From positions 1 to 40,784 of the forward strand of contig JAJYIM010000018.1 of assembly GCA_021790115.1 (NCBI GenBank): a stretch of 40,784 nt of DNA, written 5' to 3'. Source of the stretch: Actinomycetes bacterium. GTDB lineage: Bacteria; Actinomycetota; Thermoleophilia; BMS3ABIN01. The first letter of the stretch is position 1; every line of letters starts with the position of its first letter. Shown here piece after piece: positions 2,803 through 39,634 of the stretch. The translations under genes were made by a program, and so were the position numbers. Below the pieces are notes generated by a model. The model had not been told where the DNA came from and made no database searches. It was given only the letters and a program-made list of their open reading frames with translations.

Positions 2803-4440
2803 TCAAAACCAGTGCCTGAGCCACCACTTCTCGAACAGGACTTTGCCCCAATGCCAGGGGCGGAGAGGCGGATACAGGCGAACAGCCGGCTCAGGCTCGG
2901 CATAGAAGTTACCGCTGGCAAAACCGGCCTTGCCGCCACCCAGCTCCAGCCAGCAGTAGCCCTTGCCGTTGAACGTCGCTTTTGATGATTCCCCTTCGAT
3001 TTCGGCGGCAATCTTCTCAGCGACGACACCAGCTTCGTAATGAGCGAAGACGCCGGCCATGGGGAGGTTTTTGCCATTCGCCAGCCTGATATTATTGACG
3101 TCGCCAATTGCGTAAACGCCTTCGTGCTCAGTTGCCAGCGAATGTGGATCGACGTGCATCCAGCCAGATGAGCCAACAAGGCCGGACTCGCGCACTACAT
3201 CAGGAGCCCGGTGTGGAGGCACCGCCAGCAGCAGATCGACTTTCTCCGGCTCGCTGCCTGAGGCAATGATTGTCCGGTCGCCCGGGTTCATCTTCTCGAA
3301 TGGAAACAACGGATGGTAGTTGATGTTGCGCTTTTTTAGCACCTTTGATATAGCTTCCCCCATCACCGGGCCAGCGATCGGCATGGGCTGGTGTTCCGGC
3401 GTGTAAATGTGCACCTCTGATCTGCCGCGCACGCCCTTTTTGCTGAGAAAAGCCTCTACCAGGAGCGCTGCCTCATACGGCGCCGCCGGGCATTTGAATG
3501 GCATGTCGGTGACCAGGACGCCGACTGAGCCCCCGGAAAAGCCGTCCAGGGCGGCGTGAATCTTCGCCGTGCCCTCCAGGTCGTAAAGATTCAGAGCCAT
3601 CTCGTCAAAGCCGTCAACATCCTCAGGCTTGAGCTGCGCGCCCAGCGCCACAATCAGAAAATCAAAATCGATGGCCTGCGACTTTGTATTTACCTGCCTG
3701 CTTGCCGTGTCTATCTGCACAACCTCTTCGTTAATAAACTCGACTCCCTTTTGCGTTAGATCAGAAAGAGGACGCCGGATCTGGTCAGCGCGGCGCTGCC
3801 CCACCGCATGCCAGAGCAGCGACGACTGGAAAAGGTGATCGGGTGAGCGATCGATAATGACTATGCGATGGCTCTTGGGGAGCTTGCGGCGCAGGTGGTA
3901 AGCGGCCACCAGCCCGCCGGCGCCGCCCCCGAGGATAACGATATTGGCCCCGAACTTCCGGCCCGCTTGAGGCACCGCCCGGATTGTGGACTCGGGCTTG
4001 ACCACCACTTCAGCCGGCTCCTGGTAGAGCTTCTCTACGGCGGCGGCGAAGCCCGCTTCTTCGAACTCACTCTCCCATAGAACAACCTTGCCGTCGGGAT
4101 CAACAAGAATAGTATAAGGAACCCACCCGTTGCTAAGCTTTTTGAAGATTGTTCCATCTTCGTCGGGGATCACATCAAAAGGAAGCTCGTATTCTGCCTG
4201 CCACTGCTCGCAGGTCTCCTTCGTTTCAAAGGGGCCCACATAGACGGCCGAGAGTCCTTTTGCAGAGAAGCGCTCGTACAGGCGCTTTATGGCGGGAGCC
4301 TCCCGCCGGCAGCCTTGTCACTGCCCTTTCCAGAAGACAATGAGCAGCCCTTTTCCAGGATGGGCCGGCAGGCCCAGGTCCTGAAGCGGAATCTCCATTC
4401 CTTCCGAAACGCCCTTATAGCTTTCCTCAAGAACTCTCAT
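2803..4440 (-). CDS. Selenoprotein: thioredoxin-like (UxxC) domain fused to SQR-like FAD/NAD(P) oxidoreductase
   Basis: ATG at 4440 (AAAGGAG upstream) opens a frame of 545 residues interrupted only by TGA at 4318-4320, codon 41. Reading it as selenocysteine gives FWKGQ-U-QGCRREAP. This aligns with the thioredoxin/TlpA pattern FWxxxCxxCRxExP, with Sec at the nucleophilic Cys and Cys44 as partner. The redoxin domain spans residues 1 to about 140 and includes WVPYTILVDPDGKV. From about residue 155 an SQR-type flavoprotein follows: dinucleotide motif ILGGGAGGLVAA, motif KCPAAPYEAA, second FAD motif VYAIGDVNNI, and an aromatic C-terminal tail like that of the paralogue at 5965-7116. Frame-wise the fusion is continuous; the SQR part has no start signal of its own that I can see. 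A plausible role is oxidising reduced sulfur or thiols at the flavin with electron transfer through the U-x-x-C site. The direction and substrate are inference. Confidence 0.9.
4291..4320 (-). promoter_or_regulatory. Sec UGA codon and putative bacterial SECIS hairpin (redoxin-flavoprotein)
   Basis: TGA occupies 4320-4318 on the minus strand. A perfect 7-bp stem, GGCGGGA (4307-4301) with TCCCGCC (4297-4291), closes a 3-nt loop GGC at +18 to +20 after the TGA. Published bacterial SECIS models ask for an apical loop 16-37 nt downstream with a G in its first two positions. Both conditions are met. Confidence 0.85.
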
Positions 4441-4509
4441 TTACGACTTCTCCTTTCAAGCGTCCCAACTTAGGTGTTTTCCAAAAAAATGGCAGCCATC
4501 ATTCATCGG

Positions 4510-5181
4510 CTATTGTTTGACCTCGACAGGCAGGCCTTTGGCGCGCCAGTCAGGCACGCCGTCCGACAAGCGTGATGCCGTAAAACCGTTTTTACGCAGC
4601 ATTTCAACCGCTTCGATGGCCAGCACGCAATAGGGTCCGCGGCAGTATGCCACGATCTCGCGGTCGCGCGGCAGTTGGGTCAGCTTTCGCTTAAGCTCCG
4701 CCAGGGGTATTGATATTGCTCCAGGAATGTGGCCGGCCTGGAACTCCACGTCCGGCCGCACATCGAGCACGGTCACTTCGCCTTTTTTTGCCCGCCGTAC
4801 GAGGACGTCGCGGTCCACCGCCTCCATGACACCGCGTTCCCTTAAATACTGCCGGGTGACCTGCTCAATCTCCAGCAGCCGCGACTCCGCCAGCTCGCGC
4901 AGTGCCACAAAGAAGGCGCAGACTTCTTCGCCCGCCAGGCTGTAAATTACATGAACGCCTTCCCTTCGGGCCTCCACAAGCCTTGCCCTTCTAAGCACCT
5001 GCAGATGGTGCGATGTGTTGGCCACCGACTGGCCAACCTGCCCGGCAAGCGCCTCCACGGTCCGCGGACTCTGGCACAGCAGGTCGAGGATCTCCAAACG
5101 CGGCCCCGCCGACAGCGACTTGCCAATGTGCGAAAGCTGCTCGTAGATATCATTTTTGAATTGACGGGAAGATGAGGTCAT
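4510..5181 (-). CDS. ArsR-family regulator fused to a rhodanese domain
   Basis: This 223-residue protein has an ArsR winged helix at residues about 10-95 (helix-turn-helix ALAGQVGQSVANTSHHLQVL, wing REGVHVIYSL). A rhodanese domain follows at about 120-220 with active-site loop YCRGPYC, preceded by VLDVRPDVEFQAGHIPGA. Such fusions are thought to sense sulfane sulfur or sulfur species through the rhodanese cysteine. It starts at ATG 5181 after AAGGAAAA. It sits directly upstream of the selenoprotein flavoprotein on the same strand (70-bp gap), so it is the likely regulator of that operon and of itself through the operator at 5200-5211. Confidence 0.92.
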   Translation of the reverse strand: MTSSSRQFKNDIYEQLSHIGKSLSAGPRLEILDLLCQSPRTVEALAGQVGQSVANTSHHLQVLRRARLVEARREGVHVIYSLAGEEVCAFFVALRELAESRLLEIEQVTRQYLRERGVMEAVDRDVLVRRAKKGEVTVLDVRPDVEFQAGHIPGAISIPLAELKRKLTQLPRDREIVAYCRGPYCVLAIEAVEMLRKNGFTASRLSDGVPDWRAKGLPVEVKQ

Positions 5182-5300: not shown

Positions 5301-5446
5301 ATGATCAACTCAAATGATCCGGCGGCCATTTGGAATGCGTTCCGATTTATGGTCAACCGCTGGCGAAGGGTGACGAGTTAAACATGGCCAGGATGAACGA
5401 TATGTATGAAATCGTCACCGGGAACAACGAGGCGCCGAGCTTTTAA
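5301..5446 (+). pseudogene. Degraded DsrE-family gene remnant
   Basis: From ATG 5301 the frame reads NSNDPAAIWNAFRFMVNR. A one-base frame change then gives LAKGDELNMARMNDMYEIV and a short end stopping with TAA at 5444-5446. The first part resembles the N-terminus of DsrE-family proteins (xDPxxxWNAFRF, then xxGDEV). The second part resembles their C-terminus (xMxDxYEIV). The central about 70 residues are missing. I read it as an internally deleted, frameshifted DsrE paralogue lying convergent to the intact DsrE gene next door. The assignment rests on short motifs only. Confidence 0.5.
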
Positions 5447-5874
5447 AACGCCAGGTTCATATCTGCCGCCATCATGATCTCTTTGTAGTAGGTGGCGGGG
5501 TCGGCTACTGTTACTCCCATCACCAGGTCATTTTTGCTCATGCCAAATACGTCGAGGTTAAGCGGGCAGGCAAGCAGCGTGGCGCCCTCATAGTAAAGCG
5601 TCTCCATCATCAGGCTGATCTCGGGCAGGTCCATCTCCTCCATTTTTTTAACCACGGCGTCCTGCACTGCCTGGGGCTGATCCGGAAGGCAAACCAGTTT
5701 ATCTATCTTGTCCTTGTGAACAGCGTTAATGCCGCGTGAACCAAAGAAGATAGTCACCTTCGAACCGGCCCTGAGCAGGCTTTGCGCTGTCATCAGAGCG
5801 TTGAATACCTGGCACATTTCATTGTGAAAACACATGATTGATACAAATTTTGCTGGTTTTTTTTCTTGATTCAT
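5443..5874 (-). CDS. DsrE/DsrF-like sulfur relay family protein
   Basis: This 143-residue protein has the DsrE fold pattern: N-terminal strand KFVSIMCF, helix with NALMTAQSLLRAGSKVTIFF, and the conserved Cys loop in TLLACPLNLDVFGM about residue 106. In characterised relatives this Cys carries a persulfide. It starts at ATG 5874 after GGAGG. It lies 90 bp downstream of the SQR-like flavoprotein (5965-7116) on the same strand, so the pair probably hands sulfane sulfur from sulfide oxidation to a carrier. The product and partner are inferred from context. Confidence 0.85.
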   Translation of the reverse strand: MNQEKKPAKFVSIMCFHNEMCQVFNALMTAQSLLRAGSKVTIFFGSRGINAVHKDKIDKLVCLPDQPQAVQDAVVKKMEEMDLPEISLMMETLYYEGATLLACPLNLDVFGMSKNDLVMGVTVADPATYYKEIMMAADMNLAF

Positions 5875-5964: not shown

Positions 5965-7116
5965 TTACAAATACTTCCAAAACCAATATTTTTCGAAACC
6001 GATTTTCCCCCAGTGGAGCAGCCTGCTCGGTTTCCGTGCTTCAATCCTTGGATCGGGTTTCGCATAGAAGTTTCCTTTGGCTAATCCCGCCGTTCCCTTG
6101 CCGGTCTCGATGAAACAATAACCTTCGCCCAGATAGGGTTCAGGCATCGCGCTTCTCTTGATATGAGCTGCAATTTCGGCTGCCACTATTTCAGCGTGTT
6201 TGTGGGCAAAAACTCCCGCCTTTGGCAGCATTTTGCCATTGGGCAGCTTGATTGCGGTTGCGTCACCTATGACAAATAAATTCTCGTGCTTTGTGGCCAG
6301 TGTGCCGGGGTCAACCGGTACCCATCCGCCTTCGCCGGTAAGACCGGCATCTCGAACAACCTGAGCACACCCGTGGGGAGGAACATAAAAGAGGAGGTCG
6401 TACGGCACAACTTCGCCACCTTCCAGACTTAAATGATTTAAATCAGGGTCAAACGAAGTGATGGTCGCGTTATTGCGGCAGTTGATGCCTCTGGGCTTTA
6501 TCATGGAAACTATTGCTTCGCCCATTGCCGGGCCCGCCGTGGGCATCGGCGCTGGCTCCCAGGTAACGATCTCGATCTCAACCATGGTTCTTATGCCCCT
6601 TCGGCGAAGCATATCATCAACAATGAGTGCCGCCTCATAAGGTGCAGCCGGGCACTTATAAGGCTTTCGGCAAATGGCGATAACAATTCGGCCGCCCTGG
6701 AACTTCAAGAGCTCTCGATAAGCTGCTTCCAGCCCGTCGGCTGTGTAGATATTGATACCCGTGCAGCAAAGACCCGGGATAGTCTCCGGTTCCAGATCGG
6801 CACCCAAGGAAACTACAAGGTAATCGTAACCGAGCTCAATGTCATCAACCTGTATCTTGCCCGCAGCGGGTTCTATCGATGAGACATTGCCTTGAACAAA
6901 CTCGATGCCCTTTTTAACTAATCCGGATAAATTTCTCTCGACTTGGACAGCGCTGCGCTTGCCATTTAGAATCCATACATAAGAACCAGTAAAACTGTGG
7001 GCCGGGCTTTGATCAATAACGGTGATGCGGTCTTCCTTAAGAAATGAACGAAGCTTATTTGCTGCCACAACACCACCAATGCCCCCACCTAACACCAGGA
7101 TCGCCTTGCCAGCCAT
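5965..7116 (-). CDS. SQR-like FAD/NAD(P)-dependent oxidoreductase
   Basis: This 383-residue flavoprotein has the dinucleotide-binding motif LVLGGGIGGVVAA at the N-terminus, the second FAD motif LFVIGDATAIKLPNGKMLPK near residue 300, KCPAAPYEAA near residue 185, and an aromatic amphipathic tail (GFEKYWFWKYL) suited to membrane contact. These fit the sulfide:quinone oxidoreductase and flavocytochrome c sulfide dehydrogenase group. It is a paralogue of the flavoprotein half of the selenoprotein at 2803-4440 but has no redoxin domain. The start is ATG 7116, preceded by GGAGG. Whether it uses sulfide, polysulfide or another thiol compound cannot be told. Confidence 0.88.
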   Translation of the reverse strand: MAGKAILVLGGGIGGVVAANKLRSFLKEDRITVIDQSPAHSFTGSYVWILNGKRSAVQVERNLSGLVKKGIEFVQGNVSSIEPAAGKIQVDDIELGYDYLVVSLGADLEPETIPGLCCTGINIYTADGLEAAYRELLKFQGGRIVIAICRKPYKCPAAPYEAALIVDDMLRRRGIRTMVEIEIVTWEPAPMPTAGPAMGEAIVSMIKPRGINCRNNATITSFDPDLNHLSLEGGEVVPYDLLFYVPPHGCAQVVRDAGLTGEGGWVPVDPGTLATKHENLFVIGDATAIKLPNGKMLPKAGVFAHKHAEIVAAEIAAHIKRSAMPEPYLGEGYCFIETGKGTAGLAKGNFYAKPDPRIEARKPSRLLHWGKIGFEKYWFWKYL

Positions 7117-29590: not shown

Positions 29591-30688
29591 ATGCGGATGG
29601 ACATGAACAGAAGGGATTTTATCAGGCTGTGCGGGGGAACAGCGGCCATGCTGGGCCTCTCTTACAGTTGGGTGCCCGAGATCGCCCAAGCGTTGGAGCA
29701 GGCAGCCAAACGGCCGCCGGTCATCTGGATGAGCTTCATGGAATGCACCGGCTGCCTGGAGTCCTTTGCCAAGTCGGTCAACCCGTCAACGGCTGACATC
29801 GTGCTTGATATCATCAGCCTCAATTACCAGGAAAATATCATGGCTGCGGCCGGCACCCAGGCTGAGGCAGATCTAAAGAAGACCATCGGCCAGGGCGGAT
29901 ATATTGCCGTAATTGAAGGGGCCATAGCGGTAGGAATTCCTGAAGCCATGATGGTGGCCGGCAAAACTTCCCTGGAGCTGGTAAAAGAGCTGACCCAAAA
30001 TGCAGCCGCCACGCTTTGTGTAGGGACCTGCGCCGCTTACGGCGGTGTGCAGGCCATGAGGCCCAATCCTACCGGCGCCAAAGGCGTAAAAGATGCAATC
30101 GGGGCCAAAACAGTCAACGTGCCGGGATGTCCGCCCAACCCGGCGCATATGCTCCCGACCATTGTCCATTACCTGCTCTTTAACAAAATTCCGGATTTGG
30201 ATAGCGACGGCAGGCCGTTGTTCCTGTACGAGCAAAAAATCCATGATAACTGCGAACGCCGCGCCCATTTTGATGCGGGCAGATATGTCACCCAGTTTGG
30301 CAGCAAGGAAGAGACGCTGCAGTATTGTCTTTACAAAATGGGCTGCAAGGGTCCGGAAACGCATTCCCCCTGCCCCAAGACCCTTTGGAATAACAAACAG
30401 AGCTGGTGTGTCAAGTGCGGAAACGGCTGTATCGGATGCATGGAGCCCAACTTCTGGGACCGCTTCGAGGATTTTTACCAACAACTGCCCAATGTTCCCA
30501 TACCCGGCTTTGTGGGAGTTGAGACCTCGGCCGACTGGATCGGCTCGACCCTCGTCACCGCCACCATGGCAGGCGTTGGCATTCACGCCGTAACCACAGC
30601 GGCAAAAGGCAGGTTCAAGAAACACCCGGAAGAGGGCGAAGGGCCGCCGCCAGCCAAAACCGAAGCAAGTCAAGGGAGTGAGGACTAA
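29591..30688 (+). CDS. Group 1 [NiFeSe] hydrogenase small subunit
   Basis: This 365-residue electron-transfer subunit begins with a Tat signal (NRRDFIRLCGG). Proximal cluster ligands are in MECTGCLES, LCVGTCAAYGG and PGCPPNP; the Gly in CTGC indicates an ordinary, not oxygen-tolerant, proximal cluster. The distal cluster region is HDNCERRAHFD through CLYKMGCKGP. The medial cluster region reads SPCPKTLWNN, then SWCVKCGNGCIGC. A Cys stands where [3Fe-4S] enzymes have Pro, so a [4Fe-4S] medial cluster is expected, as in other [NiFeSe] enzymes. A C-terminal hydrophobic helix (about 315-340) anchors it. AAGGAGG precedes ATG 29591. It overlaps the large subunit start by 1 bp. Confidence 0.96.
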   Translation: MRMDMNRRDFIRLCGGTAAMLGLSYSWVPEIAQALEQAAKRPPVIWMSFMECTGCLESFAKSVNPSTADIVLDIISLNYQENIMAAAGTQAEADLKKTIGQGGYIAVIEGAIAVGIPEAMMVAGKTSLELVKELTQNAAATLCVGTCAAYGGVQAMRPNPTGAKGVKDAIGAKTVNVPGCPPNPAHMLPTIVHYLLFNKIPDLDSDGRPLFLYEQKIHDNCERRAHFDAGRYVTQFGSKEETLQYCLYKMGCKGPETHSPCPKTLWNNKQSWCVKCGNGCIGCMEPNFWDRFEDFYQQLPNVPIPGFVGVETSADWIGSTLVTATMAGVGIHAVTTAAKGRFKKHPEEGEGPPPAKTEASQGSED

Positions 30689-32310
30689 TGGCCAGGATTG
30701 TGGTAGATCCCGTGACCAGAATCGAAGGGCATCTCCGGGTCGAGGTGGAGGTGGATGGCGGCAAGGTCAAGGACGCATGGACCACCTGCACTCTCTTCCG
30801 CGGTTTTGAGATTTTTATCAAGGACCGGCCCCCGCTGGATGCCTGGCATATCGCCCACCGCATTTGCGGAGTCTGCCCCACTTCTCACGGACATGCGGCC
30901 ACCATGGGTCTGGAGAATTCCTTTAATGTCACGCCTCCCGGAAATGCCGTTCTGATCAGGAATCTGATGGAGGCTGCCCAGCAGTTGCATTCCCACGTTC
31001 TCTGGTTCTACACGCTCAATGCCTTTGATTATGTGGACGTGCTCAGCGCTCTTTCGGCGCAGCCGTCCACGCCAGCCCTCAAAACGGTCCAGGACCGTCT
31101 CAAGGCGTTTGCCGACAGCGGCCAGCTTGGCTTTCTTGACGGCGGCTACTGGGGTCATCCGGCAATGAAGCTGCCGCCGGAGATGAACCTGGAGCTGACG
31201 GCTCACTACCTGCAGGCGCTCGCCATCCAGGCAAAAGCGGCGCAGGCGCTGGCGGTGTTCGGCGGCAAATTCCCCTACCACATGTCCACGCCGCCCGGCG
31301 GCGTCACGGTGGTTCCATCACTGCAGGATATCGAGAACTTCGAATTCATCATGAAAGAGGTCACCGACTTTGTTCGCAACGTATTTGTCCCGGACGTCCT
31401 GGCGGTGGCGCCCTACTACATCGACCATGCCACTTTTGGCAAGGGCGTCGGCAATTTCCTCAGCTGGGGAGTGCTGGAAGATGTCGACAGCCGCGATCCT
31501 TACAAACGCGCGCTTCCCCGGGGAGCCATTTTTGGCGGGCAGCTAAAAGTGGAACAGGTTGATCCAAGTGAGGTTCAGGAGTACGTGTCACACAGTTGGT
31601 ACACGCACGATTCCGGCGCCGGTAAAAATCCCGGCAGCAATAACGCCACCACCGCGCCGCAATATACAAAGGTTGACACGAATGACAAATACACTTGGGC
31701 CAAGACAGCGCAGATAAAGAACAAGCCGATGGAAGTGGGCACGCTCGCCAGGATGCTGATCGCCTACCTGTCGCCAAACGCTCCTTATTACGCGACCGTC
31801 AAGTCGCTGGTGGACTCGACCCTGCAGGCCCTCGGGTCGGCCGGCAAGCCGGAAATTTTGATATCGGCGCTGGGACGGATCGCCACCAAAGCACTGGAAT
31901 CAGTGTTGATAGCAGACAAGGCGGAGGCTGACTTGGCACGGTTGAAGCAAAATATCAAGGACGGCGATAACAACTGGTTTAATCCCAAAGGTCACGATGT
32001 GCCGGATGCCGGCGCAGGCGTGGGCGCCTGGGAGGCGCCGCGCGGCGCCCTGGCCCACTGGAACCGGATCGAGGGCGGCAAGATAGCATCCTACCAGGCG
32101 GTTCCCGCATCCAACTGGAACTTCTCTCCCCGCAATGACCAGGGTCAAAGGGGCCCGGTGGAGGAAGCGCTGGTGGGGACTCCGGTGGCCGACGCCGCCA
32201 AGCCGTTGGAGGTGCTGCGGGTGATTCACACGTTCGATCCATGAATTGCCTGTGCGGTTCACGTGATTGAACCAAAAACCAACAAAATCATCAAATTCCA
32301 AGTCCGGTAG
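30688..32310 (+). CDS. Group 1 [NiFeSe] hydrogenase large subunit, selenoprotein (Sec519)
   Basis: This catalytic subunit (540 residues) oxidises or produces H2. The N-terminal ligand motif is HRICGVCPTSHG. The C-terminal one is TFDP-U-IACAVH, with TGA at 32242-32244 in place of the first Cys codon of DPCxxCxxH. The frame then reads on to TAG at 32308-32310. The last 15 residues (VIEPKTNKIIKFQVR) after His525 are the peptide removed by the maturation protease, of the usual length. Stopping at the TGA would delete two of the nickel ligands, so recoding is required for function. A SECIS-like hairpin follows the TGA. Confidence 0.97.
32242..32273 (+). promoter_or_regulatory. Sec UGA codon and putative bacterial SECIS hairpin (hydrogenase)
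   Basis: After TGA 32242-32244, GGTTCA (32256-32261) pairs with TGAACC (32268-32273) around a 6-nt loop CGTGAT beginning at +18. A G stands at the second loop position. This satisfies the bacterial SECIS consensus. Confidence 0.88.
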
Positions 32311-32320
32311 ATGGTGGAAA

Positions 32321-33037
32321 ATGGCCGACGAAGTTGAAATCAAACAGAGGCACTGGGTTTACATTCTGCTTCACTGGTTGATAGTCGGTTGTCTTGTCAT
32401 GCTGGGGATCACCGGCTACTACATCCATCATCCCTTTTTCCACATCGGCTCCGGCGAGGACAACCTGTTCATGACGATGGCCTGGATACGCTGGATCCAC
32501 TTTGTCACCGCAGCGGTGCTGATCGAATCGACCGCCGTCAGGTTCGAGCTGGCTTTCTTCTCGCATTTTGATGCCGACTGGCGCGACATCGGGCCGAGCA
32601 TGAAGAACATCAGGGCGCTGCCGGAAGCCATCTCCTATTACCTGTTTCTGAGAAAGGACCACCGGTACTGGCGGAAACTCAACCCGGTGGTGGCCACGAT
32701 CATCATCCCGGTCTGGCTGATCTTTTTCGTCATTGCGGTGTTGACCGGCTTTTCCATGTTCAACAGCCAGTTCTTTTGGGGGCTTACCCAAACCAGCACG
32801 ATCGTCGGCTGGGTTCCCAAGGTTTTTGGCGGCGAGGAAAACATGAGGACGTGGCATTTCTACCTGATCTGGGTGTTTGCCTGCACCGGAGCGGTATGCG
32901 TGTATCTTTCCATCATCCGCAGCGCTGATGAGCGAGACCGGACCTTCCGCAGCATTTTTTCCGGCAGGAGGCTGGTTCCCCGGAAGTTCGCGCCCATCAG
33001 GGGAGCCTCCGGACGGAAGAAGCAGCGTGGCGGCTGA
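32321..33037 (+). CDS. Ni,Fe-hydrogenase I b-type cytochrome subunit
   Basis: This 238-residue integral membrane protein has four helices: HWLIVGCLVMLGITGYYI, WIHFVTAAVLIESTAVRF, TIIIPVWLIFFVIAVLTGF and HFYLIWVFACTGAVCVYLSI. Histidines in helices 1, 2 and 4 are likely heme b ligands. It would pass electrons from the periplasmic hydrogenase to the quinone pool. ATG 32321 is 10 bp after the true large-subunit stop; a longer frame from 32267 overlaps the recoded large-subunit end and is spurious. Confidence 0.93.
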   Translation: MADEVEIKQRHWVYILLHWLIVGCLVMLGITGYYIHHPFFHIGSGEDNLFMTMAWIRWIHFVTAAVLIESTAVRFELAFFSHFDADWRDIGPSMKNIRALPEAISYYLFLRKDHRYWRKLNPVVATIIIPVWLIFFVIAVLTGFSMFNSQFFWGLTQTSTIVGWVPKVFGGEENMRTWHFYLIWVFACTGAVCVYLSIIRSADERDRTFRSIFSGRRLVPRKFAPIRGASGRKKQRGG

Positions 33038-33078
33038 CACCGGCGAAAGCGAGAAGGGCGGCGCCGGGGGCCCCTCCT

Positions 33079-33627
33079 ATGTATGAGTCCAACGGAGGCG
33101 GCGGCCCGCCGGTAAGTGGCTGTAATGCCGGCTTCCTGGTTCTGGGCGTCGGTAACATCATGATGGGTGATGAGGGGCTCGGCGTCATCGCCGTGCGCAG
33201 GCTGCTGGATGAGTTTACTTTCCCGCCGGCCGTGGTGGCCATGGAAGGCGGCGTTGGCGGCCTCTCGCTGCTGGCGGCGATCCGCTCGGCTGCGCGGATT
33301 GTAATCATCGATGCCGTCAAGGCCAACGCAATGCCGGGCAGCATCTTTATATTCGATTCCGAGGAGGTGGAAGTGCGGCGGGAGATGAAGGCTTCCCTTC
33401 ACGATGTGGGGATTCTCGAGGTCATGAAGACGGCAAGCCTGTTGGGAGGATGTCCGCCGGCCACTGTCATTGGCGTGCAGCCGGGTGAGATGGGAGAATT
33501 TGGCGCGGGTCTGACAAAGATGGTCGAGTCCAGCATGCCGCTGGTGGTAAAGATCGTGGTCGAGCTGTTGACACAGGCGGGATTTGAGCCGCAGCCGCGG
33601 CAGGCTGCTTTCTCCCCCTTGCCATGA
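33079..33627 (+). CDS. Hydrogenase maturation protease (HyaD/HupD family)
   Basis: This 182-residue endopeptidase removes the C-terminal peptide of the large subunit after nickel insertion. LGVGNIMMGDEGLGV carries the first metal-sensing acidic residue (Glu32), MEGGVGG the region of the second, and LHDVG the His. In this organism it must accept a Sec-containing DPUxxCxxH substrate. A Gly-rich N-terminal stretch of about 18 residues precedes the family start, so a later start is possible. Confidence 0.93.
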   Translation: MYESNGGGGPPVSGCNAGFLVLGVGNIMMGDEGLGVIAVRRLLDEFTFPPAVVAMEGGVGGLSLLAAIRSAARIVIIDAVKANAMPGSIFIFDSEEVEVRREMKASLHDVGILEVMKTASLLGGCPPATVIGVQPGEMGEFGAGLTKMVESSMPLVVKIVVELLTQAGFEPQPRQAAFSPLP

Positions 33628-33636
33628 GTCTGGCAG

Positions 33637-33978
33637 ATGCACGAGTACGCCGTTACCGAAAGCATTCTGGGCATCGTTCTGGACGAGGCCGCCAAGGCCG
33701 GCGCCAGCAGCGTTGAAGCAGTCACAGTTGTGCTGGGCGAGCTTTCGACCATCGTTGATAAATCGATAGGGTTTTATTTCGAGGCGCTTTCCCGGGGCAC
33801 GATCGCCGAGGGCGCCAGCCTGGTGTTTGACAGGGTTCAGGCAAGCGCCCTCTGTCTGGACTGCGGCAACTGCTTTAGGCCGCGCCATGCTTTTTTTGCC
33901 TGCCCCGGCTGCGGCTCGCTGGCGTTCCAGCTGGAAGCGGGGCAGGAGGCGTACGTGGAAAGCATAGAAGCAACTTAA
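33637..33978 (+). CDS. hypA: Hydrogenase nickel-insertion protein HypA
   Basis: This 113-residue nickel metallochaperone has the Ni-binding N-terminus MHEYAVTESI (His2) and a zinc site formed by CLDCGNC and CPGCGS. It works with HypB to load nickel into the large subunit. It lies 9 bp after the protease gene. Confidence 0.97.
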   Translation: MHEYAVTESILGIVLDEAAKAGASSVEAVTVVLGELSTIVDKSIGFYFEALSRGTIAEGASLVFDRVQASALCLDCGNCFRPRHAFFACPGCGSLAFQLEAGQEAYVESIEAT

Positions 33979-34017
33979 GCTTTTGTTTTCCCGGCGCCCA
34001 TCAAAATTTTGACATTG

Positions 34018-34040
34018 CTAAGAATCTACCTCAAAAAAAC
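34018..34040. repeat. Solo end of the MITE-like element (copy B)
   Basis: CTAAGAATCTACCTCAAAAA matches one terminal repeat of copies A and F, without an interior or a second end. It occupies the bases where the hypB ribosome-binding site would be; no Shine-Dalgarno sequence is visible there. Confidence 0.6.
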
Positions 34041-34043
34041 AGA

Positions 34044-34697
34044 ATGAAAATCGAAATCAAGAAGGATATCCTCGCATCGAACGCGTCTGTGGCGGCGCAG
34101 AACCGGGAGCGGCTTCGCCGGCACAGTGTCTGCATGGTCAATATGATGGCTTCACCCGGGGCCGGCAAGACGAGCGCCATCGTCAAGGCCATCGAGGGCG
34201 TGGCCGGGCTGAGAATGGCGGTAATTGAGGGCGACATCGCCTCGGAGATTGACTCGGTCCTCATCGAAGCCATGGGCGTTACGGCGCTGCAGATTAACAC
34301 AGGCGGTTCGTGCCATCTGACGGCGACGATGATCACGTCCGCCCTTAACTATCTGGACCTCGGCAGCCTGGACCTTATCATTATCGAGAATGTGGGCAAC
34401 CTCGTCTGTCCCGCAGAATTCGACCTGGGTGAAACAGCGCGGGTGATGATCGCCAGCGTCGCCGAGGGGCATGACAAACCGTACAAGTATCCACTCATGT
34501 TCCGGGAGGTCGATGCCATCCTGGTCAACAAGGTTGACCTGCTCCCTCTCTGTGACTTTGACCTGGCCCATTTTCATCAGGCGGTGGCCGGGCTTAACCC
34601 GGCCGCGGCCGTACTAGAGCTGTCATGCCGGGACGGCCTGGGCGCCGACCGCTGGTGTGACTGGCTAAGGTCGGCAACCGCGCAAGTGGCGGGCTGA
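34044..34697 (+). CDS. hypB: Hydrogenase nickel-incorporation GTPase HypB
   Basis: This 217-residue GTPase drives nickel delivery with HypA. Its P-loop is MASPGAGKTSAIVKAI, then VIEGDIASEID, the GTPase-associated INTGGSCHLTATMI, IIENVGNLVCPAEFDLGE, and NKVDLLP for guanine recognition. It lacks the His-rich nickel-storing N-terminus found in some homologues. The start has no evident ribosome-binding site because a repeat remnant lies immediately upstream. Confidence 0.96.
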   Translation: MKIEIKKDILASNASVAAQNRERLRRHSVCMVNMMASPGAGKTSAIVKAIEGVAGLRMAVIEGDIASEIDSVLIEAMGVTALQINTGGSCHLTATMITSALNYLDLGSLDLIIIENVGNLVCPAEFDLGETARVMIASVAEGHDKPYKYPLMFREVDAILVNKVDLLPLCDFDLAHFHQAVAGLNPAAAVLELSCRDGLGADRWCDWLRSATAQVAG

Positions 34698-34733
34698 CCT
34701 GTTTCAGGGGCCTGACATGCAGGACCAACCCTT

Positions 34734-37097
34734 ATGCCCGACTCCGAAAAGCTGACAGCCGCCGCCACCCGCACGCTCATCACAGTGACCGGCGTTGTCC
34801 AGGGCGTTGGTTTCCGCCCCTTTGTGTTCCGGGAGGCGGCCGCGCGCGGCCTGACCGGGCGCGTCATCAATACCTCGGCAGGCGTGGAGATCGATCTCGA
34901 AGGCCCCGCCACAGAGATTGACTCATTCATCCGCACGTTGGCGGACGCGCCGCCGCCCCGCGCGGTCATCATAAACATTGACAGGGTTGCTGCCGCGCCG
35001 GTCGGCTACGACCGCTTCCGGATTGGAACCTCGGTGGCCGCCCGCGGCCGGCGCCGGCTTGTCAGCCCGGACAGCTCTACCTGCGACGAGTGCCTGACGG
35101 AACTTTTTGATCCGCATGACCGGCGCTATCGCTACCCGTTTATCAACTGCACCAACTGCGGGCCCAGGTTCACGATCATCGAGGCGCTGCCTTACGACCG
35201 GCCGCTGACCACAATGAGGAAGTTTGACATGTGTCCTGAGTGCCACGCGGAATACGAGGACCCCGGCAACCGGCGGTTTCATGCCGAGCCAAACGCCTGC
35301 CCAGCCTGCGGACCCAGCCTGTGGCTGGCCGACGCGGCCGGCATGATGCTTCCTACGGATGATCCGGTCAAGGCGGCAGCGGCCGCTTTGAGCCAGGGGA
35401 AAATTGTGGCGCTCAAAGGGCTCGGCGGCTTCCAGCTGGCCTGCCTGGCGACCAGCGCGGCGGTTGTTAGCAACCTGAGGCAGCGCAAGCGCCGTGAGCA
35501 TAAACCGTTTGCGGTTATGACCCCGTCACCGGAAGAAGCGGCGCTCAACTGCCGCATCTCGCCCGCAGAGAAGCGCCTGCTTTTGTCCGTGGAGCGGCCG
35601 ATTGTTCTCCTGGACAGGCTGGACGGAGGCAATATTGTCCCGGATGTCGCTCCCGGACTGGACCGGCTGGGGATGATGCTGCCCTGTGCGCCGCTGCATT
35701 TCCTGCTGATGGACTCGGTTGGGGAGCCGCTGGTAATGACGAGCGGCAACCTGTCTGAGGAACCGATCTGCCGGACAAACAGCGAAGCGATTGCCCGGCT
35801 CGCCGGAATTGCGGATCTGTTTTTGCTCCATGACCGCGGCATTGTGTCAACATATGACGATAGCGTCGTGGCGGCCGATCACCGTGGCCGGCAGATGATG
35901 CTCAGGCGCGCGCGTGGCTTCGCGCCGTTGCCGGTAAAACTGCCGGACAGCCCCCTGGGTGGAACCGGATTGAACCCGGTGCTGGCCGCCGGCGGTGAGT
36001 TGAAAAGCTCCTTTTGCCTTGCCCGCGGCCCGGACGCCTTTGTCTCGCAACACATCGGCGACCTGGAAAACGCCGAGACGCTGGCGCACTACCAGAGGAC
36101 CGGGGAGCTTTACGAAAGGCTCTTTGCCATCCAGCCCAGGCGGCTTGCCTGCGACAAGCATCCCGGTTATCTGTCCTCTGCCTTGGCTCTGGAACGGGGC
36201 AAAGAAAGCAAGGAACAGGTCCTGCGCATTCAGCACCACCAGGCCCATGTAGCTTCCTGCCTGGCTGAGAACGGGTTTACTGGTGCCGCCGTCGGCGCTG
36301 CATTCGACGGCACGGGCCTCGGTGACGACGGCGCCATCTGGGGAGGCGAATTCTTTGCAGGCAGCCTCGTGGCCGGATTTGCCCGCGCTGCCCACCTCGA
36401 GTACTTCCCTCTGCTGGGCGGCGAGGCGGCCATCCGTGAGCCCTGGCGCACGGCGCTGTCGCTTGCCTGGCGGCACGCGACGGGCGAGATTGATTTTATC
36501 GCCGGGCTGCTGGACATCGCCGAGGAGAAAAAGCAACTGCTCGTGCGCCAGCTAAGCAGCGGTCTTAACTGCCCCGCATCTTCAAGCTGCGGCCGCCTGT
36601 TCGACGCCGTGGCAGCGATGGCTCTGGGCCGCCGCTACGTTTCTTACGAAGCTCAGGCGGCGCTGGAGTTGGAAACGGCGGCCACGCGCTGGCTGCGGCG
36701 TAAGCCCGCCCCTGCGGCTCTGCAATCTTACCGGTTTTCACTCAGCCAAAAGAGCGATCCGTGGACTGTCTCACCCTCAGATGCGGTCAGGGAGATAATT
36801 GCCAGCGTCAAAGCAGGAGAAGATCCTGCGCGAATCGCCGCCCGTTTCCACAAGGGCCTGGCAGAAGTTATAGTAAGTACATGCACTGAACTGGCGTTGC
36901 GTCTCTACCTGGAAGTGGTAGCCTTAAGCGGCGGCGTGTGGCAAAACAGGCTGCTCCTGGCGCTGGTTGAGGACGGTCTGGAGAAGGAAGGACTTACGGT
37001 AATCACCCAGCGGATGCTCCCCGCCAATGACGGCGGGCTGTCCCTGGGGCAGGCCGCCATTTCCCTGTTTGCAGCTGAAAATGCCCAAAATTGTTGA
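34734..37097 (+). CDS. hypF: Carbamoyltransferase HypF
   Basis: This 787-residue enzyme makes the thiocarbamate on HypE from carbamoyl phosphate for the cyanide ligands. Domains in order: acylphosphatase (about 12-100; GVVQGVGFRPFVFREA), two zinc fingers (CDEC with NCTNCGPRF; CPEC with ACPACGP, about 110-190), a YrdC-like domain (about 200-390; KIVALKGLGGFQLAC), and a Kae1-like carbamoyltransferase domain (about 400-787; HHQAHVASCLAENG, FDGTGLGDDGAIWGGE, LSGGVWQNRLL). Length and motifs are normal. Confidence 0.97.
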   Translation: MPDSEKLTAAATRTLITVTGVVQGVGFRPFVFREAAARGLTGRVINTSAGVEIDLEGPATEIDSFIRTLADAPPPRAVIINIDRVAAAPVGYDRFRIGTSVAARGRRRLVSPDSSTCDECLTELFDPHDRRYRYPFINCTNCGPRFTIIEALPYDRPLTTMRKFDMCPECHAEYEDPGNRRFHAEPNACPACGPSLWLADAAGMMLPTDDPVKAAAAALSQGKIVALKGLGGFQLACLATSAAVVSNLRQRKRREHKPFAVMTPSPEEAALNCRISPAEKRLLLSVERPIVLLDRLDGGNIVPDVAPGLDRLGMMLPCAPLHFLLMDSVGEPLVMTSGNLSEEPICRTNSEAIARLAGIADLFLLHDRGIVSTYDDSVVAADHRGRQMMLRRARGFAPLPVKLPDSPLGGTGLNPVLAAGGELKSSFCLARGPDAFVSQHIGDLENAETLAHYQRTGELYERLFAIQPRRLACDKHPGYLSSALALERGKESKEQVLRIQHHQAHVASCLAENGFTGAAVGAAFDGTGLGDDGAIWGGEFFAGSLVAGFARAAHLEYFPLLGGEAAIREPWRTALSLAWRHATGEIDFIAGLLDIAEEKKQLLVRQLSSGLNCPASSSCGRLFDAVAAMALGRRYVSYEAQAALELETAATRWLRRKPAPAALQSYRFSLSQKSDPWTVSPSDAVREIIASVKAGEDPARIAARFHKGLAEVIVSTCTELALRLYLEVVALSGGVWQNRLLLALVEDGLEKEGLTVITQRMLPANDGGLSLGQAAISLFAAENAQNC

Positions 37098-37184
37098 AAA
37101 AGTGTCGCGGTGAAGGGTGGCTTTACGGCTTTACTTAAAAAGCGGCTTGGTTCGCGAGCCGGGAATCTTGAACCAGGGGTTGTC

Positions 37185-37418
37185 ATGTGCCTCGCTGTGC
37201 CAGCAAAAATCATAGAGATTGAAAACCAAATGGCCATTGTGGAAATTGGCGGGCTGAAGAAGCAGGCATCGACCATCCTGCTGCCCGGGGCGGCCGCCGG
37301 CGATTACGTTTTGCTCCACGCCGGATTTGCCATCGCCCGCGTCGACGAGGACGACGCGCTGAAGACGCTGGCGCTGTTTGAAGAGATAGCCGCGGCCGGG
37401 GAAGCTGCCGATGACTGA
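37185..37418 (+). CDS. hypC: Hydrogenase assembly chaperone HypC
   Basis: ATG 37185 gives 77 residues beginning MCLAVPAKI, where Cys2 is the iron and large-subunit contact essential in the family. The longer frame from 37110 would bury this Cys and is rejected. The C-terminus overlaps hypD by 8 bp. Confidence 0.96.
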   Translation: MCLAVPAKIIEIENQMAIVEIGGLKKQASTILLPGAAAGDYVLLHAGFAIARVDEDDALKTLALFEEIAAAGEAADD

Positions 37419-38508
37419 TCCCCAGCCGCTTGCCTTTCTGGACGAGTTCCGCTCGCCGCGCCACGTCCGCGGGCAGCTGAAGAAGTTGACCACCAGACAA
37501 GAGCGCCGGACGCGGATCATGGAGGTCTGCGGCACACACACGATGGCCGTCTCGCGCCACGGCATCCGGCAGGCGGTGCCTGACTGGCTTACACTGATCT
37601 CGGGCCCCGGCTGCCCGGTCTGTGTCACCGCCAACCGCGACATCGACACTTTCATCGAGATGGCGATGCTGCCGGGTGTTATTGCAGCAACCTTTGGCGA
37701 CATGCTCAAGGTGCCTGGCACGCGGTTCGGCCTTGCGGAGGCGCGCAGCCGGGGAGCTCAGGTGCAGATCGTCTACTCGACCCTGGACGCCCTCAGGCTC
37801 GCCCGTGAGAATCCCGATAAAAACGTTATTTTCTTCGGCGTCGGCTTTGAGACCACAGCGCCGACCGTGGCAGCGGCAATTCACGAGGCCCGCCTGACCG
37901 GCACGAACAACTTTTTCGTTTTTTCGGTCCACAAGCTCGTTCCCCCGGCGCTCGAGGCTCTTTGCCGGCTGCCGGAACTGGCCGTCGACGCCTTTCTCTG
38001 TCCGGGCCATGTCTCAGCGGTCATCGGTCCCCATGCCTACCAGCCGCTGGCAGAACAGCACATTCCTTGCGTCATATCCGGCTTCGAGCCGCTTGACATC
38101 ATGCATTCGCTGAACATGATCCTTGATCAGCTTGAGAACGGCGAGGCGAAGGTCGAGGTGCAGTACTCGCGCGGCGTGCGCGCCGGCGGCAACCCGGCTG
38201 CGCTTGAGATGATGGATGCGGTATTTCAGCCCTGCGCCGCCGAGTGGCGGGGGCTGGGGACGATACCGGGCAGCGGCCTGACTCTGCGCGAGGGCTTCGC
38301 CGCCCACGACGCTCTTCAGCGGTTCCGCGTCGATGCCTCGTACTCGCGGGAGCCGTCCGGCTGCATCTGCGGCGCCATTCTGACGGGAAGCAAGCTTCCT
38401 ACCGACTGCCGGCTGTTCGCGGATGTTTGCCATCCGGACCACCCCGTTGGACCCTGCATGGTCTCTTCTGAGGGCACCTGCGCCGCCTATTATCATTATG
38501 AAATTTGA
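37411..38508 (+). CDS. hypD: Hydrogenase formation protein HypD
   Basis: This 365-residue iron-sulfur scaffold, with HypC, assembles Fe(CN)2CO. RIMEVCGTHTMAV, SGPGCPVCVT, and GVGFETTAPT are the family motifs. The C-terminal cysteine cluster (SGCICG, DCRLF, VCHP, GPCMVSSEGTCAAYYHY) binds a [4Fe-4S] cluster. It overlaps hypC. Confidence 0.97.
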   Translation: MTDPQPLAFLDEFRSPRHVRGQLKKLTTRQERRTRIMEVCGTHTMAVSRHGIRQAVPDWLTLISGPGCPVCVTANRDIDTFIEMAMLPGVIAATFGDMLKVPGTRFGLAEARSRGAQVQIVYSTLDALRLARENPDKNVIFFGVGFETTAPTVAAAIHEARLTGTNNFFVFSVHKLVPPALEALCRLPELAVDAFLCPGHVSAVIGPHAYQPLAEQHIPCVISGFEPLDIMHSLNMILDQLENGEAKVEVQYSRGVRAGGNPAALEMMDAVFQPCAAEWRGLGTIPGSGLTLREGFAAHDALQRFRVDASYSREPSGCICGAILTGSKLPTDCRLFADVCHPDHPVGPCMVSSEGTCAAYYHYEI

Positions 38509-38514
38509 ACACGG

Positions 38515-38543
38515 CCTTAGAGCCTATCGAAATAGGCTCTTAG
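38515..38543. repeat. Compact palindrome related to the MITE-like ends (copy E)
   Basis: TTAGAGCCTAT-CGAA-ATAGGCTCTTA is an 11-bp hairpin, one mismatch apart, between hypD and hypE. The arms resemble the ends of copy C (TTAAGAGCCTA). It has no interior. It could affect mRNA processing between the two genes. Confidence 0.6.
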
Positions 38544-38599
38544 CAGATAAACACAATGGCAATTTGTCCATGTCTGCCGGTTGACTCCCTGTTTCAACT

Positions 38600-39634
38600 A
38601 TGACCAACAGCTCCGGAAAAATCCAGATGGCGCACGGCACCGGCGGCAGGCTCACCCGCGATCTGGTCGCGGCGGTATTTGGAAAAAAATTCAGCAATGT
38701 CATCCTCGACAGGATGGATGACGCCGCTATGCTTGAGCTTGAGGGACGGTTTGCCTTCACCACGGACGGGCACGTGGTGTCCCCCATCTTCTTTCCCGGC
38801 GGCGATATCGGCCGCCTGTCAATCACGGGCACTGTCAACGACCTGGCGATGATGGGAGCAACGCCGCTTTACATCTCGGCAGGCTTCATCATTGAGGAAG
38901 GGATGCCGCTGGCAGATCTCGAGCGGCTGGCGCTCTCGATGCGGGAGGCCGCCGGCGAGGCCGGAGTGCAGGTGGTTGCCGGCGACACCAAAGTTGTGGA
39001 GAAGGGAGCAGCCGACAGGATTTTTGTCAACACCAGCGGCATCGGCCTGATTCCGCCCGGCGTGCACATCTCGGGAGCCGGCGCCCGGCCGGGAGACGTG
39101 GTCATCTTGAGCGGCCCCATTGGCGATCACGGCATTGCCATCATCAGCCAGCGCCAAGGAATGGATTTTGACGTGGAGATAAAAAGTGATTGTGCACCGC
39201 TGGGAGGACTTGTCCGGAGGATGCTGGATGCCTCCCCTCGCCTCAACGTTCTGCGCGACCCGACCCGAGGCGGCTTGGCCGCGTCGCTGAACGAGATCGC
39301 CGCTGCCTCCCGGGTGTCGGTCGAGATCGATGAAAGCAGGGTGCCGATGCGGGCGGCAGTGCGCGCTGCCTGCGAGCTTTTGGGGCTCGACCCGCTGATG
39401 CTGGCCAATGAAGGGAAACTGGTGGCTTTCGTGGCCGCCCAGGACGCCGGCCGCGTGCTGGAGGCCATGCGCGGCAGCCCTTTGGGCGCCGAAGCGGCAA
39501 TCATCGGCAACGTGCTTGGGGCAGAAGATCCTCACCTGCCGAGCGGACGCCCCTGTGTCTGTGCCCGCACTGTGATGGGAAGCCGGCGAATAATCCAGAT
39601 GCCCTCCGGTGAGCATCTGCCCCGGATTTGCTAG
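38600..39634 (+). CDS. hypE: Hydrogenase expression/formation protein HypE
   Basis: This 344-residue ATP-dependent dehydratase converts the carbamoylated C-terminal Cys to thiocyanate, the cyanide donor. AHGTGGRLTRDLVAAVF, FTTDGHVVSPIFFPGGDIG, DRIFVNTSGIG, ILSGPIGDHGIAI and RDPTRGGLAASLNEIA are present, and the protein ends with the obligatory PRIC. The start lacks a clear ribosome-binding site and follows a palindromic repeat. Confidence 0.97.
   Translation: MTNSSGKIQMAHGTGGRLTRDLVAAVFGKKFSNVILDRMDDAAMLELEGRFAFTTDGHVVSPIFFPGGDIGRLSITGTVNDLAMMGATPLYISAGFIIEEGMPLADLERLALSMREAAGEAGVQVVAGDTKVVEKGAADRIFVNTSGIGLIPPGVHISGAGARPGDVVILSGPIGDHGIAIISQRQGMDFDVEIKSDCAPLGGLVRRMLDASPRLNVLRDPTRGGLAASLNEIAAASRVSVEIDESRVPMRAAVRAACELLGLDPLMLANEGKLVAFVAAQDAGRVLEAMRGSPLGAEAAIIGNVLGAEDPHLPSGRPCVCARTVMGSRRIIQMPSGEHLPRIC

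Follow-up and report, generated by a model that had tools for sequence, protein, structure and literature searches.

The window, by which we mean the whole analysed stretch of 40,784 nucleotides, carries on its minus strand a gene that opens with an ATG at 4440-4438, preceded by a ribosome-binding site, and that ends with a TGA at 2805-2803 (Table 1). When TGA is read as a residue the frame stays open over 545 codons, with a single internal TGA, codon 41, in the context FWKGQ[U]QGCRREAP, while translation with table 11 yields only a GTG-started tail of 478 residues (2803-4239). The original prediction had described a well-preceded ATG, a frame broken once by TGA within a thioredoxin motif and a gene caller that would report the 478-residue tail alone; all of this holds, and the strand, which it left unstated, is the minus one. 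The product is very probably one polypeptide, composed of a Sec-Cys redoxin of the ResA type, a flexible linker and a flavoprotein of the sulfide:quinone oxidoreductase (SQR) type. Its only Sec/Cys residues are U41, C44, C77, C317 (3492-3490) and C496 (2955-2953), each invariant among the 12 aligned fusions. The N-terminal domain carries U41-x-x-C44 and C77, and the FAD domain, which in the structural model ends in an aromatic amphipathic helix (527-544), carries the catalytic cysteines C317 and C496.

Table 1. Features of the predicted selenoprotein gene and its neighbours (positions in the window)
Feature	Position	Strand	Details and basis
Ribosome-binding site AAAGGAG	4450..4456	-	9 nt 5' of the ATG; read from the sequence
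Entire predicted selenoprotein gene	2803..4440	-	545 residues plus stop; Sec is codon 41
ResA/TlpA-like redoxin domain, N-terminal, residues 1-140	4021..4440	-	AhpC-TSA PF00578 family; Pfam, NCBIfam, PDB ResA, alignment
Predicted selenocysteine codon 41, in-frame TGA	4318..4320	-	comparative
bSECIS-like hairpin	4291..4307	-	7 bp, loop GGC, 17 nt from UGA to loop; synonymous constraint, model criteria
Linker, residues 141-164	3949..4020	-	low confidence, pLDDT <50 at 141-162
SQR/FCSD-type FAD domain, residues 165-545	2806..3948	-	Pfam, PDB sequence and fold matches
ArsR-family HTH fused to rhodanese	4510..5181	-	upstream neighbour; Pfam
DsrE2-like sulfur-carrier protein	5443..5874	-	retained in L007, L008 and L014; Pfam
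Second SQR-like flavoprotein, unfused, no TGA	5965..7116	-	separate clade; Pfam, tree

A scan with one genome per species detected TGA at codon 41 in all 11 of the other full-length relatives, which are 59-82% identical to the fusion. The host family holds 15 copies in 14 genomes, each with exactly one TGA and always at this codon, and several genomes of the family lack the fusion; among the Acidobacteriota it occurs in 2 of 297 genomes, both MAGs, and both have kept the TGA. No fused copy found in the host family or in the two Acidobacteriota MAGs has Cys at codon 41, and all 22 readable sequences among the unfused ResA/TlpA-like redoxins aligned to the N-terminal domain have Cys at both 41 and 44, so that the comparison of homologues proposed with the original prediction has returned Cys in unfused and TGA in fused proteins. 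The dN/dS ratio is 0.12 for codons 1-40, 0.15 for codons 42-155 and 0.14 for the remainder, which indicates that the stretch ahead of the TGA is translated in the same frame. It could be argued that the TGA is an ordinary stop, leaving either a pseudogene or a 40-residue peptide followed by a separate, GTG-started flavoprotein of 478 residues, a view suggested by the gene caller's output and by the long frames of the window, which end in TGA more often than in any other stop. However, two phyla together provide at least 17 copies with the same TGA, codons 1-40 are strongly constrained in frame, the start of the tail lies inside the redoxin fold, and a covarying hairpin and a full Sec machinery accompany the gene (see below), all of which makes an ordinary stop very improbable. 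A genome-wide reassignment of TGA to an ordinary amino acid would account for the open frame and for nothing beyond it, and is already contradicted, its probability being negligible: by mechanical count 23 of the 44 long stop-to-stop frames in the window end in TGA, and TGA is the terminal stop of the gene in the window and in the related loci L004 and L007. It is not, therefore, a general sense codon, and this ground for rejecting the original prediction falls away.

The hairpin downstream of the TGA (GGCGGGA-ggc-UCCCGCC, 4307-4291) has seven base pairs, and 17 nt separate the UGA from its 3-nt loop. Published bSECIS criteria comprise a loop of 3-9 nt, an upper stem of 4-16 bp, a distance of 16-37 nt from the UGA and an MFE of -7.5 or lower, and the model wants G in the first two loop positions, in an N1-G-G-N-N2 apical pattern (PMC13188914); the hairpin agrees with them, including the apical pattern (A-GGC-U loop). 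The 40-nt stretch that contains it folds with -16.9 kcal/mol, which is unexceptional with respect to shuffled sequences (z of -1.4 in the window, and from -0.8 to -2.1 overall), so that we have relied on covariation and synonymous constraint instead. In the 15 distinct sequences 98.1% of the cells pair, both partners have changed in three of the seven pairs, and the covariation score was reached by none of 500 shuffles. Moreover, synonymous diversity is lowest in the 14 codons from 45 to 58, just 3' of the TGA and over the hairpin (0.137; the mean for the gene is 0.594, with a standard deviation of 0.111). An Rfam scan of the region rendered no match. The spacing, the fit to the model and the compensatory changes thus bear out the earlier claim of a 7-bp hairpin at the right distance.

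With selA, selD and selB, as well as a tRNA-Sec (anticodon TCA) in the same contig, the host genome (1.81 Mb, 97.6% complete) encodes the four components whose presence it had been advised to check. Among the 12 carrier genomes selB is found in all, and tRNA-Sec, called from ARAGORN anticodons, is recognised in 10, the two MAGs that gave none being probably incomplete; low-score Rfam matches to tRNA-Sec were discounted because all control genomes give them too. The host genes for SelD (G000:C30:32412-33341) and for a formate dehydrogenase alpha-like protein (G000:C56:10696-11445) also have one in-frame TGA each, and the host therefore probably carries at least three selenoproteins. The comparative evidence is strong, and we consider it close to certain, short of experiment, that SelB and tRNA-Sec would insert selenocysteine at the UGA of codon 41, the hairpin acting as SECIS.

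The N-terminal domain matches PF00578 (AhpC-TSA) with 59.8 bits (cut-off, 26) and resembles ResA/TlpA in NCBIfam and in the PDB structure of ResA. In the structural model U41 lies directly ahead of a helix (42-61), so that UxxC stands where the first helix of the redoxin begins. To judge from its sequence, the redoxin is of the thiol-disulfide type and not of the peroxidase type. The thioredoxin-like domain originally described is thus sustained as a redoxin fold, refined to ResA/TlpA-like, and such domains with Sec also exist on their own: its closest kin are three standalone Sec redoxins (L104-L106) with the same TGA and hairpin, which come from the phylum searched around locus L012 and have the motif FWKTL[U]xRCQQEAP. 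They are 31-36% identical to the N-terminal domain, with the TGA at the same codon and the SECIS loop and stem core shared, but are unfused, of about 150-160 residues, and have Ala in place of C77. No SQR lies within about 1.5 kb on either side of them. According to our own reading of the translations, L104 and L105 are followed by a gene resembling a cysteine desulfurase, and L105 and L106 have ArsR-type and membrane genes nearby; these are possibly loci of sulfur or selenium delivery. A search through the 346 genomes of the phylum to which L011 belongs (labelled Nitrospirota), run without positive control, gave no close redoxin relative at 1e-18, and viral contigs contain no redoxin relative.

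For the flavoprotein half, the best PDB matches in sequence are human SQOR, bacterial SQRs and flavocytochrome c sulfide dehydrogenase, and the same SQR families lead by fold, that of a flavoprotein with two dinucleotide-binding domains, with target TM-scores of about 0.8. The AlphaFold model used for this comparison (pLDDT 84) was obtained by adding unfused SQRs to the 12 fused sequences, which alone gave a pLDDT of 61. C317 and C496 are invariant in 17 of 17 sequences and align with Cys201 and Cys379 of human SQOR, residue numbers that we placed on the alignment from the aligned motifs. In the human enzyme this cysteine pair holds a catalytic trisulfide, and the acceptor attacks the Cys379 persulfide (PMC11039317). 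Besides the FAD-binding GxGxxG, the only other match to this motif (501) sits in the C-terminal region, so that nothing points to an NAD(P)H site. The identification as an SQR-type flavoprotein is upheld by these matches and by the conservation of both catalytic cysteines, and sulfide or persulfide chemistry of the SQR type is likely.

The flavoprotein tree, built on 42 domains, groups all 15 fused ones in a single clade (100/100), within which Acidobacteriota L009 branches outside the others. A single origin of the fusion, followed by transfer between phyla, is probable, although contamination of the MAG is possible for L004. One genome of the family has two copies of the Sec fusion (G712:C83 and G712:C121). 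In plasmids only unfused relatives of the flavoprotein were detected, 33-37% identical among the best matches.

The ArsR-rhodanese gene adjoins the fusion in the window, as it does at five further fused loci, and in other families of the phylum it also accompanies some of the unfused relatives, so that the ArsR-rhodanese neighbour of the original prediction is both supported by Pfam and recurrent. In the distant genomes of L052, L055 and L057, an ArsR-HTH-rhodanese gene stands by an SQR of this subfamily (50-55% identity). The DsrE2-like gene and an unfused SQR of the other clade likewise recur near fused loci. Elsewhere in the window, the translations reveal an apparent [NiFe]-hydrogenase operon on the plus strand (29591-39634), with small and large subunits, a cytochrome b-like protein and a maturation protease, then HypB-, HypF-, HypD- and HypE-like genes, the last of which weakly matches the selD model; on the minus strand, positions 1-1950 hold a repeat-rich, surface-protein-like gene with near-identical units, cut by the window edge. 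The ArsR-rhodanese protein is a candidate sensor of reactive sulfur and probably a sulfur-responsive regulator of the locus. An ArsR-family neighbour would also be expected if the same selenoprotein had selenium, mercury or another metalloid as its substrate, its Sec serving as a ligand or carrying selenium, and if a metalloregulator of the ArsR type controlled the locus. An SQR of A. ferrooxidans has been crystallised with selenide (3sz0), and the standalone Sec redoxins adjoin a cysteine-desulfurase-like gene at L104 and L105, which would fit such a role. No arsenic, mercury or metal transporter gene adjoins the fusion, however, and the regulator has a rhodanese domain, which points to sulfur; we regard a metalloid substrate as improbable.

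As a tentative reading, the protein could be a sulfide oxidase that depends on Sec, its tethered selenol redoxin being the dedicated acceptor of sulfane sulfur; Sec at codon 41 would then be obligatory in this lineage, because none of the fusions found has Cys there. Sulfide would be oxidised at the site formed by FAD, C317 and C496, and the electrons would leave to the quinone pool, a quinone being the acceptor suggested by the fold. The U41 selenolate, tethered by a linker that is modelled with low confidence, would be the enzyme's own acceptor and draw the sulfane sulfur away from the persulfide on C496; this acceptor role of U41 is itself conceivable, somewhat short of an even chance. C44, and perhaps C77, would resolve the sulfur-loaded U41, and the sulfur would be handed to carriers such as the neighbouring DsrE2-like protein or a rhodanese, while the ArsR-rhodanese would probably switch the locus in response to reactive sulfur.

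The main rival to this reading assumes the same selenoprotein and gives its halves other roles: the redoxin would work as a reductase of thiol-disulfides (or peroxides) and draw its electrons from the flavoprotein, the path running from sulfide or another donor through FAD and C317/C496 to U41/C44, as in flavoprotein-redoxin relays. A ResA/TlpA-like fold that has UxxC at its N-terminus and, ahead of a strand, the conserved Pro108 is typical of thiol-disulfide exchange, and the C-terminal domain belongs to the pyridine nucleotide-disulfide oxidoreductase superfamily. Nevertheless, only the FAD-type GxGxxG is present, SQRs outrank NADH-using enzymes among the structural matches, and the neighbours are sulfur-transfer proteins, so that such a reductase appears rather unlikely, if well worth keeping in mind. 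A sulfide oxidase with a tethered selenol acceptor, which we prefer, would place selenium beside an FAD/cysteine centre that oxidises sulfide, at a point where the product depends on what accepts the sulfane sulfur. The carriers are Actinomycetota MAGs, several of them from subsurface or groundwater projects according to their titles, and two Acidobacteriota MAGs. A standard gene caller would report the flavoprotein tail only and miss the selenium site.

The open-access literature that we searched contains no description of a redoxin-SQR selenoprotein. A 2026 catalogue lists Prx-like selenoproteins with UxxC and, separately, a type III SQR selenoprotein with HxxU (PMC13188914), the latter reported by deep-Sep as an NAD(P)/FAD-dependent oxidoreductase (PMC12013277). 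This second protein (NF049943, type III sulfide quinone reductase, selenoprotein subtype; PMC12013277) has a homologous SQR-type flavoprotein and is also a predicted selenoprotein, but in it Sec is located in the HxxU motif, as given in the catalogue (PMC13188914), whereas the SQR half of the fusion has no TGA and Sec lies in the added redoxin. Against the NF049943 model the fusion scores 243 bits and its unfused neighbour 234, both below the cut-off of 525. The statement that no selenoprotein of this architecture had been described stands, then, for the architecture, which the catalogue of prokaryotic selenoproteins lacks and which the fusion adds to it, but has to be qualified in that another selenoprotein SQR is catalogued. 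Given the lack of a description, the score below the cut-off and the different position of Sec, we consider the fusion to be new as a combination.

Human SQOR, bacterial SQR and flavocytochrome c sulfide dehydrogenase share with the fusion the fold and both catalytic cysteines, but their structures have no redoxin domain, and the acceptors that human SQOR uses are of low molecular weight (PMC11039317). A precedent for a flavoprotein of the same superfamily joined to a sulfur-handling domain is offered by CoADR-rhodanese fusions and NAD-dependent persulfide reductases (3ict, 6pfz); they are, however, weaker structural matches, depend on NAD(P)H and lack Sec, and the CoADR-RHD fusions have a rhodanese where the fusion has a redoxin. 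The Prx-like thiol:disulfide oxidoreductase selenoproteins (PF00578, UxxC; PMC13188914, Table 1) have in common with the fusion the Pfam family and the UxxC site, but their entry includes no fusion to an SQR-type flavoprotein; the protein described here adds the invariant C77, and no Cys form of it was found. In sum, the redoxin-SQR fusion combines a Sec redoxin of a known kind with an SQR, and it is the joining that is new.
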